Positions 6,207 through 36,011 of a stretch of DNA of 38,171 nucleotides are shown piece after piece. A program made the translations under genes and the position numbers. A model generated the notes under the pieces. That model was not told where the DNA came from. It did no database searches and saw only the letters and a list, made by a program, of their open reading frames with translations. The DNA is taken from the IMG/VR virus record IMGVR_UViG_3300027969_000210, positions 1 to 38,171 of that record; one strand, given 5' to 3'. The stretch's first letter is position 1. Each line of letters opens with the position of its first letter. Source of the DNA: a virus.

Positions 6207-9032
6207 GTGGGATTCGTTGAACAGGCACGACTTGCAGAGTCTCATCGCTTAGCTCAGGCAAAGCTTCAAGCTCTCGCAGTCCAGGACATGGCAAAGGCTT
6301 TTCCACTGCTTGACGTCAACAATATTGACAGAAGCTTTGGACCATTCTTTGAGTCAGCTTATTCATCGATCACCGCAAGACGAACAATGAGCTCAGCTCT
6401 CGGAGCTGCCTTCTACGATGGAATCCGTAAAGATTACAATCTTGACAATCTATTCACTCCCATCCTGGAGTCCGTCCCACCAGCTGACAAAGTCTTCACC
6501 TCGCTTCTTGTCACCGGACCGATTGCCATGAAGAAGAATCTTGCAGCTGGCGTCGATCCTTTGATAGCAAAGCAGTCGGCTCTCAAAACGGTTTCAAAAG
6601 CTGCTCAGCGTCACACGATTGATGGTGGCCGAGAGACTGTCAGGAAGTCAGTTGCTCGAGATCGATATGCGATCGGATGGGCTCGTCTCACCGATGGCAA
6701 GCCTTGCGCGTTCTGTGCGCTCCTAGCTTCTCGAGGACCTGCCTACAAATCTGAAGGCACCTCAAAATTCAGATCTCATGATGGATGCGGATGCACAGCT
6801 GTCCCCGTCTTTGATGCGAATGCCCCCTGGCCTGGCCGAGCTCAAGAATTTCGAAAAGCTTATGACGAAAATATTTCAGGCAAGTTCGTCGGTGGAGATG
6901 GAAACAACCCAGCTGTCAAAGCCTGGAGAAACTACTACGACATCAAAGTTGAACCGACTCCGATCAATTCGGCGCGAGCTGTTGCAAGCAACCTGGTCGA
7001 AAAGGCTCGCAAAGTTGAGCCAGTTCTTACAGATCAGATGGAAACTCTTGCGGCTAAAAACAACGCAGAGCTCAAAGGTCTTGAATATCGACTCAAGGGT
7101 GAAGATTCGCTTACACGAAAAATTCTCAAGGACGTCGAAGAAGGCAAGGGCCTTGTCACCGCTGAAGAAATCGGCGGAAAAATTTTCGACGTCAATCGCT
7201 ACACAATGCAGCTGGCAGATGACGAATATGTCTCAGGAGCTCAGGCCATCATCGATGAGCTTGAAGAGACCGGACATTCTCTCAAAGTCAAAAACTATTG
7301 GACTGTCGACGATAACCCTTACCAGGGAATCAATATCCAGGTCACTGCACCAGATGGCACTCAATTTGAGCTCCAACTTCATACGGGCAAGTCTCTTGAA
7401 GTAAAAGAAGGCGAACTGCACTCAATCTATGAGCTGGCTCGCAAAGAAAAGAATCCGCTCAAGCTTGCTGAATATGATCGCCAAAGCTTTGCAGCTGCGA
7501 AAAAAATCCCCGTGCCTAAAGGTATCGAAACGGTTGGCTCAAGAAGTGCGGCAGCTGCGCCGAAGCCAGTTGCTCCCTGGAGACAAAAATTTGATGATGC
7601 AAAGAAGAGACTTCCGGCGGATCGATCCAGGATCGGTCGCAGAGGTGGAAGAGATCTGACAGCTGTTGAGCTCAAAGAACTTGATGACGCGAAGAAGGCC
7701 CAGGACTTCGTTGAGCGTTGGGAAAAAGACCTAAAAAATGCCACCTCGAAAAATGATGAAGTTCTAAAGCAGGCACTTTTCAAAGAATTCGAGAAAACAA
7801 CGGGAATCGCGCCAACTGTCAATCAATACGGCACAGTCCCTGAAGCTCGTGAAATCTGGGGAAATTCTTTCAGGACCCAGAAAAAATTTGATCTTCTAAA
7901 GCGCGGCGAAATAGATGCCGGCGAATACATTCGTGCCGGACGAGGCAAGTTGAAACAAAGAGTTGGCGCAGAAGCAAGCGCTCATCTTGAAGATATTCTT
8001 GAGGCCGGAAAATCCCTGAGAGTTGAGCTCGATCTGAGAATTGCTGCAAGAATCCAGGCTGAATCTCTTGGTCGAAATATTGACGAGATCAATGATGCAA
8101 TCAAAGCTCAAAAGAAGCTTGAGAAGTCTCTTGAAGAATTGACTGAAAAGAGAAACGTCGAACGTCTCAGAATTCGAAAGAATTTCGAAACAGAGTCAAG
8201 AGTCAGAAGTTTCAGCGACGAAGATTCCCGCCTAAGTTGGATCGATATTCAGACCAATCTTTACAGTCGGATCGACCCCGCAGTGGCTAAATTAGATAAA
8301 GAAATTTACTTGGTAACAAAAGATCTCAAGACAACCGTCAAGCAGGTCAAAGACATCTCCGGTGAAATAGTGCCGGGAACAAAACTCTTCGGCACAATTC
8401 AACGCGAAGAGACCCTGAAGCTTTTGGCTGAAGTTCGCTCAATGGACGGAAGAGTCACTTCTTACGTTGGAGCTCGTGGCGGAGCTGTGTCGGCTGAATT
8501 AGCCGATGCGATGAAATTCGCGGACGATTCTTTTCCTCGTGACTGGATTGATACCGTGAACGAGAAATATGATGAAATCTCAATCGGCACTTCAGGTCGC
8601 GGCTACAATCGCGGAGGAAATGAGATCAGATTATCGCAACACTTTGAGACCAATGTCGTTGATGACAAGGGTTACTTTGCTGTCGCAGTCCACGAGCTAG
8701 GCCACTCAATGGAAAAGACTGTCCCTGGTCTCAGTGAGATGGAATGGGCATTCCACTCCCGCCGAGCTTTGATCACTACTCCAAAGGGTGATCAATTCGA
8801 GCCTGAAAAATGGCTTGGAAGCGGTTATCGCCGAACAGAAAAATCGGTCTTTGATGCTTGGACGACCGCGTACACAGGAAAAGTGTACGAGGGAGACCCC
8901 GAAGGATCTTGGGAAGTTTTCACAACAGGAATCGAATCTCTTTTGGCCGGATCGAAATACTTTGGTGGCGGTGTAGTAGACTTGGACGACGATTTCCGAG
9001 ACTTCTTGATTGGGGTATTGAGTGTCCTCTAA
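6207..9032 (+). CDS. MuF-like capsid protein fused to RelA/SpoT-like domain and zinc metallopeptidase
   Basis: This 941-residue multidomain protein starts at GTG 6207, three bases after the portal stop. Residues 1-240 are a MuF/head-morphogenesis domain with the cysteine-histidine signature C167-x2-C170, H191-x2-C194-x-C196. Residues of about 275-420 resemble the RelA/SpoT nucleotide pyrophosphokinase fold: YRLKGEDSLTRK (294-305), DVNRY (328-332), NPYQGIN (370-376), FELQLHT (387-393) and H405 in 'ELHSIYE'. A long charged coiled-coil-rich region follows (about 450-740). The C-terminus has HELGH (829-833) with E903 in 'SWEVF' as a possible third zinc ligand, a zincin-type peptidase. MuF proteins sit inside capsids and can enter the cell with DNA. 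In MuF polymorphic toxins the C-terminal part varies. Enzyme activity is inferred from motifs. Confidence 0.85.
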   Translation: MGFVEQARLAESHRLAQAKLQALAVQDMAKAFPLLDVNNIDRSFGPFFESAYSSITARRTMSSALGAAFYDGIRKDYNLDNLFTPILESVPPADKVFTSLLVTGPIAMKKNLAAGVDPLIAKQSALKTVSKAAQRHTIDGGRETVRKSVARDRYAIGWARLTDGKPCAFCALLASRGPAYKSEGTSKFRSHDGCGCTAVPVFDANAPWPGRAQEFRKAYDENISGKFVGGDGNNPAVKAWRNYYDIKVEPTPINSARAVASNLVEKARKVEPVLTDQMETLAAKNNAELKGLEYRLKGEDSLTRKILKDVEEGKGLVTAEEIGGKIFDVNRYTMQLADDEYVSGAQAIIDELEETGHSLKVKNYWTVDDNPYQGINIQVTAPDGTQFELQLHTGKSLEVKEGELHSIYELARKEKNPLKLAEYDRQSFAAAKKIPVPKGIETVGSRSAAAAPKPVAPWRQKFDDAKKRLPADRSRIGRRGGRDLTAVELKELDDAKKAQDFVERWEKDLKNATSKNDEVLKQALFKEFEKTTGIAPTVNQYGTVPEAREIWGNSFRTQKKFDLLKRGEIDAGEYIRAGRGKLKQRVGAEASAHLEDILEAGKSLRVELDLRIAARIQAESLGRNIDEINDAIKAQKKLEKSLEELTEKRNVERLRIRKNFETESRVRSFSDEDSRLSWIDIQTNLYSRIDPAVAKLDKEIYLVTKDLKTTVKQVKDISGEIVPGTKLFGTIQREETLKLLAEVRSMDGRVTSYVGARGGAVSAELADAMKFADDSFPRDWIDTVNEKYDEISIGTSGRGYNRGGNEIRLSQHFETNVVDDKGYFAVAVHELGHSMEKTVPGLSEMEWAFHSRRALITTPKGDQFEPEKWLGSGYRRTEKSVFDAWTTAYTGKVYEGDPEGSWEVFTTGIESLLAGSKYFGGGVVDLDDDFRDFLIGVLSVL

Positions 9033-9309
9033 CTGGACAGCTAAAGCGCAAGACTGGACAGTGTCCTGGTCTAGTGCTTCGCCCTACCTTGAAGGCTCTG
9101 GTGCAGTCATTGTCGAAATTCTTCGCGAGCTATTTCAAAGCGATGGCGTTCTTGTCACACCAACTGGACCAGCGATTTCAGCTGAGGTCAGCTCTAGCGA
9201 AGCAACTGCGCTGACTCTGGCAAGACTCTACCCATCCGCAACTTTTGAAAATTTTCCTGACATTGAAGCTCTATGGGACCAAAATATTCCCGAGGATGCT
9301 GTCTTCTAA
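9022..9309 (+). CDS. Small protein overlapping MuF gene; candidate immunity protein
   Basis: This 95-residue protein starts at GTG 9022, overlapping the last 11 bases of the MuF gene, and stops at TAA 9307-9309. I do not recognise its family. The N-terminus is Trp/Ser-rich ('SSNWTAKAQDWTVSW') and the rest is acidic with a mixed alpha/beta look ('GAVIVEILRELFQSDG'). Translational coupling to a polymorphic-toxin-like gene makes an immunity or accessory role plausible, but this is position-based inference only. Its 3' end overlaps the 3' end of the convergent minus-strand gene by four bases. Confidence 0.72.
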   Translation: MSSNWTAKAQDWTVSWSSASPYLEGSGAVIVEILRELFQSDGVLVTPTGPAISAEVSSSEATALTLARLYPSATFENFPDIEALWDQNIPEDAVF

Positions 9310-9509
9310 TTCTTAAAGGCTAAGACAAACTCTGATCGTGCTTCGGTCTCAGTGATTGGGTCAATGTCGTGACGTTCACCGGCAAAATATTCAAGCACTA
9401 ACCCAGTCGGACTCCAAAGAGATCCGTCAAACAATTCATGACCAGAATCTGAAACACGCAAAAGAGCTTTTGGTTCTGGAAGATCCCAAGTGAAATATTT
9501 CGCGCTCAT
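9306..9509 (-). CDS. Hypothetical 67-residue protein, last gene of inverted cassette
   Basis: This minus-strand gene reads from ATG 9509 to TAG 9306. The start overlaps the stop of the preceding ribbon-helix-helix gene as ATGA, so the two are translationally coupled. The protein is acidic ('WDLPEPKALLRV', 'SLWSPTGLVLEYFAGERHD') and has no membrane segment or recognised domain. Because it directly follows a small DNA-binding protein it could be the partner in a two-gene regulatory or toxin-antitoxin-like unit, but nothing in its sequence proves this. The stop codon overlaps that of the plus-strand gene ending at 9309. Confidence 0.68.
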   Translation of the reverse strand: MSAKYFTWDLPEPKALLRVSDSGHELFDGSLWSPTGLVLEYFAGERHDIDPITETEARSEFVLAFKN

Positions 9510-9679
9510 TTTTTGACCACCCTTCTTTTCTCGATTGCATCATATCGATTTTCTGCATATTGCGTCAGTGCAATTCTTACAATGTCAGAGACCGTTCGCT
9601 GCTCTAGCTCGGCTCGCTCTTTTGCTGCTTCCCAGAGCTCATCGTCCACTCTGATCGCTCGCTGCTTCGTATTAGCCAA
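9506..9679 (-). CDS. Ribbon-helix-helix DNA-binding protein
   Basis: This small gene of 57 residues starts at TTG 9679, with a GAAGGGA-type ribosome site upstream, and ends at TGA 9506. The protein begins MANTKQRAIRVDDELWEAAK and continues through 'ERAELEQRTVSDIVRIAL'. That is a clear MetJ/Arc ribbon-helix-helix pattern: a short beta strand with alternating polar and hydrophobic residues, helix A, a turn, then helix B. Such proteins bind DNA as dimers and often repress their own operon. It overlaps both neighbours (TTGGCTAA upstream, ATGA downstream), supporting its reality despite its size. It is a candidate regulator of this cassette. Confidence 0.8.
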   Translation of the reverse strand: MANTKQRAIRVDDELWEAAKERAELEQRTVSDIVRIALTQYAENRYDAIEKRRVVKK

Positions 9680-9923
9680 GATGCTTCGTCCCTTCAGTCT
9701 GCGCGCTCCACTTGGTATCGAAAAACAAACCGCACTTCGCGCCGCCGATTACTTGCCAAGCCCAACGATTGTGATCATATTTAACCTGGACACCGCTGAC
9801 GTGGATCCAGTGCTTCTTCCCCTTGCCCTGGCTAACCCATTCGCTGGGAATAACCGATGACAACATTCTCTCATAAACATTGACTTTATTCACTGCACTT
9901 CCTTTCGTTGATTCTGACTTCAT
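9672..9923 (-). CDS. Hypothetical 83-residue protein
   Basis: This minus-strand gene runs from ATG 9923 to TAA 9672 and overlaps the upstream zinc-finger gene by four bases. The sequence is Trp- and Lys-rich in the middle ('SEWVSQGKGKKHWIHVSG', 'VKYDHNRWAWQVIGGAK') and looks like a compact beta-rich domain. I do not recognise a family. Operon position and strict overlap spacing argue that it is a real gene. No signal peptide or membrane helix is visible. Confidence 0.68.
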   Translation of the reverse strand: MKSESTKGSAVNKVNVYERMLSSVIPSEWVSQGKGKKHWIHVSGVQVKYDHNRWAWQVIGGAKCGLFFDTKWSAQTEGTKHLG

Positions 9924-10144
9924 GCACTTACTCCATAAGCTTCTCTCCAGTTGAATCCAGCTGCATCGTCAAGAGCTTGAGCAGCTTTGATCCTGTCCGC
10001 GTGAATCTCGGAAGCTTTATGACCAGAAGGTCTCATGCAAGATCTTCCAGGAGTCGCCTGACAGCTAGGACAGACAACAGCTTTGAAGCAGGTGTCCCCT
10101 CTACTTGTACCCTCGCAGAACTCACATTCTTTGATCTCGATCAT
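9920..10144 (-). CDS. Zinc-finger protein, actinophage CPxC type
   Basis: This 74-residue protein runs from ATG 10144 to TGA 9920. It has a first pair C7-x2-C10, C19, and the signature 'CPSCQATPGRSCMRPSG' (C25, C28, C36), followed by H42 and H48 in 'GHKASEIHADRI'. This arrangement is common in short actinobacterial and actinophage zinc-finger proteins thought to bind nucleic acid. The C-terminal tail is short and acidic. It is coupled to both neighbours by four-base overlaps. The precise DNA target is unknown. Confidence 0.82.
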   Translation of the reverse strand: MIEIKECEFCEGTSRGDTCFKAVVCPSCQATPGRSCMRPSGHKASEIHADRIKAAQALDDAAGFNWREAYGVSA

Positions 10145-10281
10145 GCTGCCACCTTCATCTCCACTGCAATTCCAGCCTTTTCATAAGCTTTGATCAAAGC
10201 TTTGATTCTTGTCGCACTCAATTCAGCTCTTGCGAACTCTTCCTGAGATTCTATTGAAACGATGCTGACTAAAGTTTTCAT
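10141..10281 (-). CDS. Very small hypothetical protein (46 residues)
   Basis: This gene reads from ATG 10281 to TGA 10141. It overlaps the preceding gene by four bases at its start and the next gene by four bases at its stop, which is the main evidence that it is translated. The product begins MKTLVSIVSIESQEEFARAE and is predicted to be mainly helical, with a basic, Ala-rich middle. No family is recognised. Confidence 0.65.
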   Translation of the reverse strand: MKTLVSIVSIESQEEFARAELSATRIKALIKAYEKAGIAVEMKVAA

Positions 10282-10616
10282 GCTGATAACCTCTCTCCGA
10301 ACTCTTCGTTGGATCTAAAGCAAGAAGCTTGATATGCGACCTCACCGATATTTTCGCAATACACGCCCTCGACGGATCCTTTGATGAACATCTTTCCCCC
10401 ACGCTTGAACATTCTTCGGACTGTATAAGTATCGTCCCAAGCTAAATCGATCATGACTGAATAGCCGTTACTCACTGGCAAAGTGATTCCTGTTTTACGA
10501 ACCTCAACTCGACCACCAGAGATCGCGAAAATATTCATTTTTCCGATCTGAGAGATCAATTCTTGAGAGCTACATTCACGCATAAATTCAAAATGCTTTC
10601 CTTCTAAGATTTCCAT
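10278..10616 (-). CDS. Conserved-type actinophage hypothetical protein, first gene of inverted cassette
   Basis: This 112-residue protein runs from ATG 10616, with an AGGGA ribosome site just upstream, to TGA 10278. The core contains 'IGKMNIFAISGGRVEV', 'LPVSNGYSVMIDLAWDDTY', 'TVRRMFKRGGKMFIKG' and 'GEVAYQASCFRS'. I associate this pattern with a widespread actinophage family of unknown function, usually found among early or lysogeny genes. The protein is probably a small soluble beta-rich domain. It is the promoter-proximal gene of the six-gene minus-strand operon. Confidence 0.75.
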   Translation of the reverse strand: MEILEGKHFEFMRECSSQELISQIGKMNIFAISGGRVEVRKTGITLPVSNGYSVMIDLAWDDTYTVRRMFKRGGKMFIKGSVEGVYCENIGEVAYQASCFRSNEEFGERLSA

Positions 10617-24961: not shown

Positions 24962-26194
24962 TCATTTTCGAGGCTTCTTGTATCGAGGATTCTGGTGAAC
25001 AGATCTGACTTGATCGACGTCACTCCAATCAACGTCATCAAATAACAAATCAACCGCAGCTCTCTCTTCATCGTTGATGAGATCGGCATATCTCATCGTC
25101 ACAATCGGCGAAGCGTGGCGCATCAGTCTCGAAGTCACGACGAGATTGCCTCCAGATTTTCGAAGCATCTCGGTTGCGAAGAAGTGTCTGAAGCTGTGAA
25201 AGCTCAATCGACTTCCATTCTTGTCGTTGTTGTGCTTGGTCATAACACCAAGACGGCGCATCTCTTGACAAGCTTTGCGACTCAAATAGTTGGGCTGAAT
25301 GTCGTACAACTTTCCCAGCGTCTTCTTCGATTGAATCAGCTCGACAACTTTGGGATGCGCTGGGACAAGGAGTTCGGTGTTCCCTTTTCCCCTGATTCGA
25401 AGCATCCAATTTCCACCATGATTTTCAAGCCAGGATCCTTCAACCATTGAAACCTCGCAAGCTCTCATCCCAGTAAGAGCAGCCAGGGTGAACCATTCCT
25501 TCTCTGGCAAGGTTGCTTCTGAAATCAAGTGAAGCACCTGTTCTCGACTCAATGGACGAGGTGATGCTCGATTGACTTTGATCTTGGGCAGACCATCATC
25601 TGGTCGGTGAGTCAATGGAATCACGCCCATCATTCGAAGTGAATTGAAAACGCTTCGACATCTTCCAACGTAGGACTCTCGACTGGATTGAGTCTGCGCT
25701 CGCAGGACTTGATCCTCAAGATCTTGCAAGAAGATCTCAGACGGGTGCCGATCTCCGCAGACTCTTTTCAGCATCGACCAATCGGACATGAACAAAGTTC
25801 GCGCCCAACCGCTGAGCTCGTATCGTCTAGCCAGGAGATCTCCGACCTCCTTGTGCCAGGGCTGGGTTGGCTCCCCTCCCCTTAAATAGATCTCTTCAAC
25901 ACTTGTCATCTCGCAAAAGACCGGATCCCTGCCTCGCAGATAGCTAGTCCGTACTCCTTCACCCCTTGCGACAGGTGAGGCGGAATTGCCGGAAAGTTGC
26001 CTCTTTCGTCCTGGCTTCCGCGAAGAAATTTCCAGAACATTGTCGGCGTGTCTTTCCGAACCATTGACATCAATGTCAAGAGTGGAGGTACTATTCATTC
26101 TTGGAGGGGCGCTAGTCAAGGGGTTTAACCCAAGACTTTCAAAAGTTGTGAAACTGTTATTCATAGCCGCAGAGCTTGAATTGCTTGATTTCAT
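24962..26194 (-). CDS. int: Tyrosine-family integrase
   Basis: This 410-residue protein runs from ATG 26194, chosen because GAAAGGAAA lies just upstream; an in-frame GTG at 26224 falls inside the promoter repeat. All catalytic residues of the phage-integrase family are seen: R244 in 'LTGMRACEV', K270 in 'RGKGNTE', H333-x2-R336 in 'HSFRHFF', H360 in 'LMRHAS' and nucleophile Y369 in 'TMRYADL'. A core-binding helical domain lies near 120-190. The first 90 or so residues are Ser/Asn/Arg-rich with no obvious arm-binding fold, which is unusual. The enzyme integrates the phage genome at a host attachment site, marking the phage as temperate. Confidence 0.94.
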   Translation of the reverse strand: MKSSNSSSAAMNNSFTTFESLGLNPLTSAPPRMNSTSTLDIDVNGSERHADNVLEISSRKPGRKRQLSGNSASPVARGEGVRTSYLRGRDPVFCEMTSVEEIYLRGGEPTQPWHKEVGDLLARRYELSGWARTLFMSDWSMLKRVCGDRHPSEIFLQDLEDQVLRAQTQSSRESYVGRCRSVFNSLRMMGVIPLTHRPDDGLPKIKVNRASPRPLSREQVLHLISEATLPEKEWFTLAALTGMRACEVSMVEGSWLENHGGNWMLRIRGKGNTELLVPAHPKVVELIQSKKTLGKLYDIQPNYLSRKACQEMRRLGVMTKHNNDKNGSRLSFHSFRHFFATEMLRKSGGNLVVTSRLMRHASPIVTMRYADLINDEERAAVDLLFDDVDWSDVDQVRSVHQNPRYKKPRK

Positions 26195-26215
26195 TGCTTT
26201 CCTTTCAACTATTAC

Positions 26216-26358
26216 GTGAGACAACTACATAGTGAGGAAAGTTCACCAAGGCTGTAACCTTGAGAAATGTCGAGTGAGAATTGACCGTTCGGACACGAAT
26301 GGTCAAATCTTCACGCTCAACATAACGCGTGAACTTCCTTACCATGTAGCTGTTTCAC
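26216..26358. promoter_or_regulatory. Mirror-image divergent control region (operator/promoter, possible attP)
   Basis: Two inverted arms, 26216-26246 and 26329-26358, match at about 26 of 31 positions with one gap. Read outward, both contain GTGAACTT, CCT, AC, ATGTAG, TGT and TCAC blocks. The arms end 21 and 20 bases before the integrase ATG (26194) and the early-gene GTG (26379). Between them lies an imperfect 26-bp palindrome (26281-26306) with arms TTGACCGTTCG and CGAATGGTCAA. CAAGG/CCTTG (26248-26263) is a further small dyad. This looks like a shared divergent promoter with operator. The palindrome could instead be an integrase core site with flanking arm sites. Confidence 0.65.
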
Positions 26359-34182: not shown

Positions 34183-34752
34183 ATGACAACCATTGCCGCG
34201 ATTCAAGGTGATGGCTTTGCAGTCATTGCAGCTGATCGACGTGCATCTGATGACGATGGTTTCACCGTCGACATGGTTTCACCAAAGATTTTCAAGAACG
34301 GAATCGCTCTTATCGGAGGTGCTGGATCTGTTCGCGGTCTTAACATTTTGGAATTCGGTTGGACAGCTCCTGCTTTTGCACAAAGCAAAACAGTTGAGCA
34401 CTATCTGACTCAAAAATTCATTCCATCGCTTCGCTCTGCTTTCATCGAAGCTGGCTATGACATGAAAAGTGACAAAGAAGCCGCAGAGCAAGACAACGAT
34501 CTTGTCATCTGCATCAAGGGACAAGTTTTCATCATTGCCGGAGATTACAGCTGGGATCGATGCTCCAGAGGAATTCATATTGCAGGAAGTGGCGGAAAGT
34601 ACGCCCTGGGTGCACTAGCTGCTTTGGGTGCTACCGATAAAAAAATCACAACTGAAAAGGCTGAAGCTTTACTTCGCAAGTCAATCGCAATCGCAATGCG
34701 TTGGGATGCATATTCTGGCGGAGAAGTAGACGTCTTCACTCAAGAGGCTTGA
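34183..34752 (+). CDS. Proteasome/HslV-like Ntn-hydrolase (phage-encoded)
   Basis: This 189-residue protein is preceded by AAGGGGGAAA. It begins MTTIAAIQGDGFAVIAADRR. Removal of Met gives an N-terminal threonine, the catalytic residue of proteasome beta subunits and HslV. D18 in 'AADRRAS' and K35 in 'SPKIFKNG' sit where D17 and K33 are expected, allowing a one-residue insertion. 'HIAGSGGKYALGALAALGAT' (133-151) closely follows the HslV signature around S-G-G with the following helix, and 'EVDVFTQEA' ends the domain. A 12-mer peptidase ring is therefore plausible. No HslU-like unfoldase is in the window, so it may use a host ATPase, act alone, or have another Ntn activity. Confidence 0.78.
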   Translation: MTTIAAIQGDGFAVIAADRRASDDDGFTVDMVSPKIFKNGIALIGGAGSVRGLNILEFGWTAPAFAQSKTVEHYLTQKFIPSLRSAFIEAGYDMKSDKEAAEQDNDLVICIKGQVFIIAGDYSWDRCSRGIHIAGSGGKYALGALAALGATDKKITTEKAEALLRKSIAIAMRWDAYSGGEVDVFTQEA

Positions 34753-34755
34753 TTG

Positions 34756-35058
34756 ATGGCTTGGGAAGGATCCACTCGCCGAGCAAGACTTCCCAAAGAT
34801 TGGCATCAACGCCGAAGAGCAGCTCTTGCAAGAGATCAACACAAGTGCCAGATCCTTTCCGAAGAGACTGGATTCATCTGCGCTGAAAAGGCCACTGAGG
34901 TCGACCACATTCGACCGGGAGATGATCACAACATGAGCAACCTTCAAGCAATCTGCACCTGGCATCATCTTCGAAAGTCTTCAGCTGAAGGCAACGCAGC
35001 AAAAATCAAATTCGCTCCACGCAATCGTCCATCTGAAAAGCACCCCGGCTCACTATGA
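34756..35058 (+). CDS. HNH endonuclease
   Basis: This 100-residue protein starts at ATG 34756, four bases after the previous stop; TTG 34753 is an alternative. It has 'RRRAALARDQHKCQI' and then the HNH core 'EVDHIRPGDDHNMSNLQAIC' followed by 'TWHHLRKS'. In many siphoviruses a small HNH protein assists terminase in cutting concatemers. Here it lies far from terminase in linear order, with a glycosyltransferase and the fibre genes between. A packaging role, or a role as a nicking enzyme, is therefore inferred. It overlaps the next gene by ATGA. Confidence 0.86.
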   Translation: MAWEGSTRRARLPKDWHQRRRAALARDQHKCQILSEETGFICAEKATEVDHIRPGDDHNMSNLQAICTWHHLRKSSAEGNAAKIKFAPRNRPSEKHPGSL

Positions 35059-36011
35059 GAGTCGCAGCTTTCCTCATGTCTTACCCACCAGAGCGCATGG
35101 TGGGAGCAGAACTCATGTCGAGCGAATTCCTAGAAGCATTGGTGGACGCCGGTCACGAAGTCACTGTCTACGCAGATCTCATCTCTGAGGCATACGAACG
35201 CAACGGCGTCCACGTCAAATCTCGCAAGGATTTCAACAAACTAAAGCGGTCGGCTGATCTGATCTATTCTCATCCTGACCTTGGATCCATTGGGTACATT
35301 GTCAGTCAACTGCACCAGATCCCTTATGTCGCAGTCGTTCACAACATTGGATCTCTCAATGCCTGGCACTTAGCTCATCACAAGCCAACACTGACAATCT
35401 GGAATTCGGAATCCACCAGGACAGCTCTTAAAGGTGAAGGAGGCCTGGTAGTTCGCTCCCCTATTAAGGTGTCAGACCACAAGGTCAAGCCTGGCAAAGC
35501 ATTCACCCTGGTAAATCTATGCAAGGACAAGGGTGTCGATACATTCACAGCTCTAGTCAAGCAGCTGGACTTCCCCGCCCTGGCTGTCGCTGGAGGCTAT
35601 GACGTACAAGAGATCGACCAGGTCAAGAAATCTGGAGCAACCCCCACCCCCCTTGTCCAGTTTTCAGAAATGCCACCCCTAGTCTGGTCACAAACCAAAG
35701 TCTTACTGATGCCCAGTGTCTCTGAGTCTTGGGGACGTGTAGGGGTTGAAGCTCTATGCAGTGGCATTCCAGTCGTAGCTCATCCAACACCTGGGCTAAA
35801 GGAATCACTGGGCTCAGCTGGAATCTTTATTGATCGAGACGATCACCAAGCTTGGGCTGATGAAGTTTCACAGCTGATGACAGACGATGCTTACTTTGCA
35901 GCTGCCAGCAAAAAGGCCAGTGCCCGAGCTCGCTCACTCGAGAAGCAGACAGCTAGTGATCTGGCTTTATTCCGAACCGCTTGTGAAAAGTTAACTCAAC
36001 CTCAGCTCTAA
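35055..36011 (+). CDS. Glycosyltransferase family 4-like protein
   Basis: This 318-residue protein has a GT-B fold. The N-terminal half begins 'MRVAAFLMSYPPERMVGAEL' with 'EFLEALVDAGHEVTVYADL'. The C-terminal half has 'VLLMPSVSESWGRVGVEALC' followed by 'SGIPVVAHPTPGLKESLG', containing the E-x7-E motif that binds the sugar nucleotide. The substrate could be DNA, a virion protein or a host envelope sugar. It is coupled to the HNH gene by four-base overlap. Codon use (CTA, CCC, GTA) looks slightly different from neighbours, suggesting separate acquisition. Confidence 0.86.
   Translation: MRVAAFLMSYPPERMVGAELMSSEFLEALVDAGHEVTVYADLISEAYERNGVHVKSRKDFNKLKRSADLIYSHPDLGSIGYIVSQLHQIPYVAVVHNIGSLNAWHLAHHKPTLTIWNSESTRTALKGEGGLVVRSPIKVSDHKVKPGKAFTLVNLCKDKGVDTFTALVKQLDFPALAVAGGYDVQEIDQVKKSGATPTPLVQFSEMPPLVWSQTKVLLMPSVSESWGRVGVEALCSGIPVVAHPTPGLKESLGSAGIFIDRDDHQAWADEVSQLMTDDAYFAAASKKASARARSLEKQTASDLALFRTACEKLTQPQL

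Follow-up and report, generated by a model that had tools for sequence, protein, structure and literature searches.

MuF proteins with RelA/SpoT domains have been on record since 2012 (PMC3482391) and were described again in 2017 (PMC5576092, PMC5512222), and one family of this kind, Apk2, has already been assayed, so that the basic idea of the arrangement described here is not new. Apk2 consists of MuF and an adenosine 3'-pyrophosphokinase and is found in Streptococcus, Mannheimia and Pasteurella prophages; its pyrophosphokinase domain is toxic in E. coli and makes (p)ppApp only, and it is neutralised by IapK through binding and by Aph1 through hydrolysis (PMC12226406). The exported alarmone synthetase of Streptomyces albidoflavus, SaEAS (PDB 8vx3), produces pppApp as well as pppGpp, with a preference for guanine nucleotides (PMC12691689). 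A further point of reference is the polyvalent phage proteins, which bring several effector domains together in one virion-associated polypeptide, with zincin and RelA/SpoT domains recurring (PMC5512222). According to the same source, the zincins of polyvalent proteins are proposed to be releasing proteases, and P1 DdrB, which ends in a zincin-type domain, is cleaved before packaging.

The virus record analysed here, 38,171 bases in length, is referred to throughout as the window. It encodes an integrase (24962-26224), and the phage is therefore regarded as temperate. The presence of a WhiB gene, together with TerL and portal proteins whose nearest relatives are those of Arthrobacter phages (64-66% identity), points to an actinobacterium as the host. 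A PADLOC run gave no matches. In another part of the window, a gene for a proteasome/HslV-type peptidase (PF00227, phrog_1040; 34183-34752) adjoins a GT4 glycosyltransferase gene (35055-36011).

The gene studied here, P0001, has terminase and portal genes upstream and scaffold and major capsid genes downstream. Its product starts with a MuF/VG15 part, followed by an RSH-type synthetase (SYNTH, about residues 254-446), a charged spacer and a C-terminal zincin (table 1). The MuF part matches Pfam PF25310 (VG15) over residues 9-220 (E 2.6e-34) and phrog_193 (E 1.9e-48), is 35% identical in alignment to the bare 264-aa MuF protein of Curtobacterium phage Cappuccino, and contains a metal-binding signature formed by CAFC (167-170) and HDGCGC (191-196; nt 6705-6794 for the two together); PF04233 was not reported for it at E 1 in the Pfam search. 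An earlier sequence-only reading of this DNA had described a single frame with a MuF Cys/His signature, an ordered RelA/SpoT motif set and an HELGH motif with E903, and all of these elements are present. The spacer, which the earlier reading had called a coiled coil, looks helical and is rich in charged residues (E 10%, K 10%, R 11%), and family searches with it gave no matches.

Table 1. Features of the P0001 locus and their positions in the window
Feature	Position	Strand	Evidence
P0001, single open frame, GTG start, 941 aa	6207-9032	+	
MuF-type (VG15) head domain, P0001 residues 1-240	6207-6926	+	Pfam PF25310, phrog_193, Cappuccino alignment
SYNTH, RSH-type pyrophosphokinase, P0001 residues about 250-450	6954-7556	+	phmmer, profile, AlphaFold2, VIA, dN/dS
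Charged, mostly helical-looking spacer, P0001 residues 451-690	7557-8276	+	composition, no family matches
C-terminal zincin module, P0001 residues 691-941	8277-9029	+	homologous loci, invariant metal ligands
ORF9022, 95 aa, predicted zincin partner (immunity or inhibitor)	9022-9309	+	HMM, position, hhalign
ORF9306m, 67 aa, predicted IapK-family immunity protein, converging on the candidate toxin gene	9306-9509	-	HMM, hhalign, phmmer
Ribbon-helix-helix (CopG) protein, 57 aa, TTG start	9506-9679	-	Pfam RHH_1
Four overlapping small genes (9672-9923, 9920-10144, 10141-10281, 10278-10616)	9672-10616	-	overlapping ends, dN/dS 0.045-0.139

The identity of SYNTH as an RSH-type synthetase is certain. 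The motifs YRLKGEDSLTRK (294-305), DVNRYT (328-333), NPYQGIN (370-376) and FELQLHT (387-393) and the histidine in position 405 are found in this domain, and PDB 8vx3 matches residues 262-443 of P0001 with E 1.5e-17 in phmmer. A profile of 22 SYNTH sequences finds 8vx3 at E 7e-32 and the type VI toxin Tas1 at E 6e-4. The sequence-only reading had placed a RelA/SpoT-like domain on a MuF capsid protein and proposed structure prediction and a fold search of this region as a check, and the outcome is an RSH fold: the AlphaFold2 model has a pLDDT of 92 and a pTM of 0.85, Foldseek gives E 2.3e-13, and superposition on SaEAS (8vx3) gives a VIA Z of 20.9 over 197 residues at 2.8 A, as against a Z of 12-13 for other small alarmone synthetases and Tas1. 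D121, R124, N169, E182 and Q184 of SaEAS align with D328, R331, N376, E388 and Q390 of P0001, and K154 aligns with K360, two positions before the lysine (K362) that is invariant across MuF synthetases. Because these residues line up with those of SaEAS, the active site of SYNTH is considered intact, with D328, R331, K360/K362, N376, E388 and Q390 as its catalytic set, and the essential residues are retained in all homologues aligned. SaEAS is thus the closest solved structure, but it is a Sec-secreted stand-alone enzyme without an immunity gene. A further resemblance links SYNTH to a part of XopAD, an effector of plant pathogens.

Comparison with a related locus, the 94% identical L002, indicates how selection is distributed along the protein. 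The dN/dS ratio is lowest in SYNTH (0.028) and amounts to 0.078 in the MuF part, 0.049-0.085 in the spacer and 0.052 in the zincin, so that purifying selection is acting on every part of P0001. The ratios for the two small genes next to it are 0.095 (ORF9022) and 0.058 (ORF9306m).

To place this build among its relatives, it was compared with 97 SYNTH loci that do not belong to the window group (the window itself together with L002 and L012). These loci come from phage records and from viral contigs and genomes scanned with the synthetase alignment. In the complete proteins of the other MuF-SYNTH loci the synthetase is C-terminal, with a tail of 0-4 aa (35 aa in L014 and L016), whereas in the window group it is internal and followed by spacer and zincin (495 aa in the window and in L002). 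The double build of SYNTH and zincin was found in these three related phages only, all of them from metagenomes. In L012 the frame is interrupted at 2230-2340, by either a sequencing error or a true break; the idea that L012 is a shorter version lacking the zincin was rejected, since the same domains can be read in the broken frame. A tree built from 22 synthetase domains places the window group, with good support, together with L014, L016 and L013, and the simplest history is the insertion of SYNTH into a MuF-zincin protein. Among these other loci, the 800-aa MuF-synthetase protein of Haemophilus phage Aaphi23 (L008:2150-4552) contains, as seen by eye, an intein-like stretch in its MuF part, from FNCFPGQ to VFVSNC.

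The same genomic place is occupied differently in related phages. Arthrobacter phage Soondubu carries a VIP2-like ADP-ribosyltransferase there and Curtobacterium phage Cappuccino carries nothing, and the TerL proteins of both are about 65% identical to that of the window. Payloads are thus swapped at the MuF site among related phages. A MuF N-terminus with a toxin-type extension that is exchanged between related phages, in a temperate phage and with a small ORF of less than 150 aa downstream (here ORF9022), is what P0001 shares with the MuF polymorphic toxins (PMC5576092). These relatives also bear on the view that the C-terminal 700 aa serve mainly in head assembly or DNA entry, as a maturation protease with an enzyme-like scaffold, and are not toxic, to which we return below.

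In the zincin module, the HELGH motif occupies residues 829-833 (nt 8691-8705) and the third ligand is E903 (nt 8913-8915); H, E, H and E903 are invariant in 46 of 46 aligned sequences. A model of residues 691-941 built from a six-sequence alignment had a pLDDT of only 47, and the fold search with this low-confidence model gave no match. Nothing significant came from profile searches of the PDB with the zincin either, and its homologues show weak, sub-threshold matches to Pfam M90 and M64. The same module is present in 73 further viral loci, without SYNTH and nearly always as the C-terminal end of the protein; most MuF-zincin proteins have 580-720 aa, with the zincin last and no synthetase. 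The likeness of P0001 to the MuF metallopeptidase toxins (PMC5576092) is one of domain type, and the MuF-zincin proteins found here share with it the C-terminal HExxH...E zincin and an ORF of about 95 aa but lack SYNTH, both modules occurring together in the window group only.

The MuF proteins that end in a zincin (L092-L178) form a large family in their own right. Most are followed by a gene of 79-104 aa apparently belonging to one family, whose products have the motif V.P.GP or VGPVG and end in P.GA[IV], a candidate toxin-immunity or protease-inhibitor pair. The zincin proteins can be as long as 1044 aa (L166:1546-4680) and 1087 aa (L163:2118-5381), and the L166 polypeptide joins a weak MuF match, HTH/Cox-like domains and a zincin.

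ORF9022 overlaps the stop of P0001 and lies directly downstream of it. The genes found directly 3' of MuF-zincin genes have the same small size, and their spacing is -3 to +19 nt in most loci. A profile trained on these loci detects the partner family (about 95 aa) at 66 of the 73 zincin loci and at no synthetase locus out of 97, while a half-trained profile recovered 14 of 22 held-out partners and, again, nothing in the synthetase loci. An HMM of ORF9022, run against 3762 ORFs from zincin loci, has genes that immediately follow a zincin as its top six matches and as nine of the best 11 (p about 3e-15). Hypergeometric p values of this kind ignore the relatedness of the loci and are therefore too low, although the difference from the controls holds. 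Other small ORFs of the window gave little or no signal in the same test. In hhalign, ORF9022 reaches E 4e-4. The search with the partner profile does not recover ORF9022 at E 0.01, and it is from the reverse search and from position that ORF9022 is predicted to be the cognate partner of the zincin.

What, then, could the zincin do? The sequence-only reading had offered a release or a maturation protease. Of these, release is one of two readings that are still live; maturation is less probable, as in this place a Curtobacterium phage whose terminase is 65% identical encodes nothing more than a bare MuF protein of 264 aa. The zincin family comes with a small partner gene of its own, and the case for an effector role is for that reason no weaker than that for release. 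We lean slightly towards the zincin being a second toxin, since it usually occurs without another enzyme and yet with its own small partner gene, and consider a releasing protease the less probable of the two.

In its most definite form, the release reading takes the zincin as an autoprocessing protease that releases SYNTH by cleaving the spacer, either inside the head or once the protein has entered the cell, with ORF9022 as an inhibitor delaying the cut. The zincin does lie at the end of the protein, behind a long spacer, and polyvalent-protein zincins have been proposed to act in this manner, and P1 DdrB is cleaved before packaging (PMC5512222). However, the 73 zincin loci without SYNTH usually have no such payload to be freed, the partner gene accompanies the zincin, and Apk2 proteins have no zincin; autoprocessing is therefore rated as rather unlikely, and action of the zincin as a toxin of its own remains the preferred reading.

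The second small gene, ORF9306m, lies on the opposite strand and resembles the IapK immunity family. An HMM built from 26 IapK-family genes located behind other MuF synthetases ranks ORF9306m first among the 948 ORFs of the window, with E 4e-4 against 3.1 for the next, and hhalign aligns it to the family with a Prob of 93.7 and E 2e-7 (at most 0.3 for 13 control ORFs). In phmmer, 10 of the best 11 matches of ORF9306m are adjacent downstream genes of SYNTH toxins, and the remaining one, in L019, likewise follows the toxin gene, at a distance of 85 nt. A narrower IapK profile, made from five sequences, missed ORF9306m in its search of the window. An immunity role is predicted on the basis of this family resemblance. 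The orientation is peculiar: in all 97 other SYNTH loci the IapK-family gene directly follows the toxin on the plus strand (a consequence of how the profile was built), the minus-strand version is confined to the window group, and zincin-only loci contain no member of the family. In two of the loci whose MuF synthetases are among the nearest to that of the window, an XkdF-type (S78_2) phage protease gene begins with a fused IapK-like domain (L014:5660-6655 and L016:5660-6400; Pfam on L014), so that the IapK-like immunity is built into a head protein there.

The start of the iapK-like gene overlaps the stop of the ribbon-helix-helix (RHH) gene as ATGA; the RHH_1 match of the latter has E 5.8e-5 and 23.3 bits against a cut-off of 20.5 (Pfam). 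Upstream of this pair, within the late region, the four small minus-strand genes are shared by the window and L002 and absent from L012, and 9920-10144 encodes a phage zinc-finger protein (PF24623). L012 retains the RHH and iapK-like genes alone, behind a promoter-like TGGACA-17-TAGATT with TG before the second hexamer, where 0.6 such matches would be expected by chance in the scan, and the promoter scan of the minus-strand unit of the window gave no clear site. With one site at chance level and no clear one in the window, it is the layout that suggests expression of the iapK-like gene in lysogeny.

Set beside Apk2, P0001 has the same MuF N-terminus in the terminase-portal packaging module, a SYNTH 32-36% identical to the phage MuF-SYNTH proteins of Apk2 hosts, with RYT, GxN and intact catalytic residues, and an IapK-family gene nearby. 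On the other hand, SYNTH is internal in P0001 and 495 aa with a zincin follow it, and whereas iapK and aph1 follow Apk2, here the iapK-like gene lies on the opposite strand, after an extra ORF and beside an RHH gene, and the search for Aph1 found none (best E 1.8). With a synthetase that is not C-terminal and without the iapK-aph1 order, P0001 is not classed as a plain Apk2, but it very probably works like one. Polyvalent proteins share the principle of several effectors in one polypeptide; P0001 differs in its MuF toxin position beside the portal gene and in its two separate candidate partner genes, which the accessible part of PMC5512222 does not describe.

The likely product of SYNTH follows from the same comparison. 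The RYT signature of syn2 and the GxN signature of syn3 are those of the (p)ppApp-only Apk2 toxins (PMC12226406), which makes ATP the likely acceptor and (p)ppApp a likelier product than (p)ppGpp. Two features make the product uncertain: the residue adjoining the syn4 histidine is Leu391 in P0001 and Tyr in the characterised Apk2 toxins, and SaEAS makes both alarmones, with a preference for guanine nucleotides. We expect (p)ppApp, with (p)ppGpp as a possible product. It is improbable that SYNTH makes mainly (p)ppGpp and tunes the stringent response of the infected host in favour of the phage, without killing rivals: the preference of SaEAS, the nearest solved relative, would fit, but the syn2 and syn3 signatures match toxins that make only (p)ppApp, and an IapK-type immunity gene suggests toxicity. 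The proposal that this locus encodes a virion-delivered alarmone effector thus holds as regards SYNTH on a MuF protein, is shifted towards (p)ppApp, and is extended by two immunity-like genes that the sequence-only reading had not mentioned. The non-toxic head role named above is very improbable. All neighbours are head genes and PHROG labels the matching MuF family 'head maturation protease', but one close relative has a bare 264-aa MuF and another an ADP-ribosyltransferase in this place, strong selection keeps the SYNTH active site complete, and there is an IapK-family gene close by.

P0001 is probably a MuF polymorphic toxin that is delivered by the virion, carries two payloads and has a candidate cognate partner for each. 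By analogy with the MuF family, the MuF domain would place a few copies of P0001 in the phage head, from which the protein would enter the next cell along with the DNA. There SYNTH, judging from the Apk2 motifs, would use ATP to pyrophosphorylate adenine nucleotides at their 3' end and so drain ATP into (p)ppApp, possibly with some pppGpp, while the zincin would either be a second toxin that cleaves a host protein or release SYNTH from the capsid part. Each payload may have kept its own partner, ORF9022 with the zincin and the IapK-like ORF9306m with SYNTH. Located on the minus strand behind the RHH gene, the iapK-like gene could have its own promoter and be readable while the late genes are silent, and lysogens would thereby survive the toxin from sibling phages. 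More tentatively, the complete picture could be that of one virion protein with two toxins, each with a small neutralising gene, in which antisense, RHH-controlled immunity to SYNTH lets only lysogens survive particles of their kin.

Alarmone-type MuF head toxins were already known; the double build, the flipped immunity gene and a candidate partner gene for each module are new variants. On the one hand, two payloads with two separable immunity candidates make the timing of immunity, in lysogeny as against lytic growth, accessible to experiment, and the double-payload gene allows one to ask which payload acts in the infected cell. On the other hand, the MuF zincin family with its partner gene provides a large set of toxin-immunity candidates.
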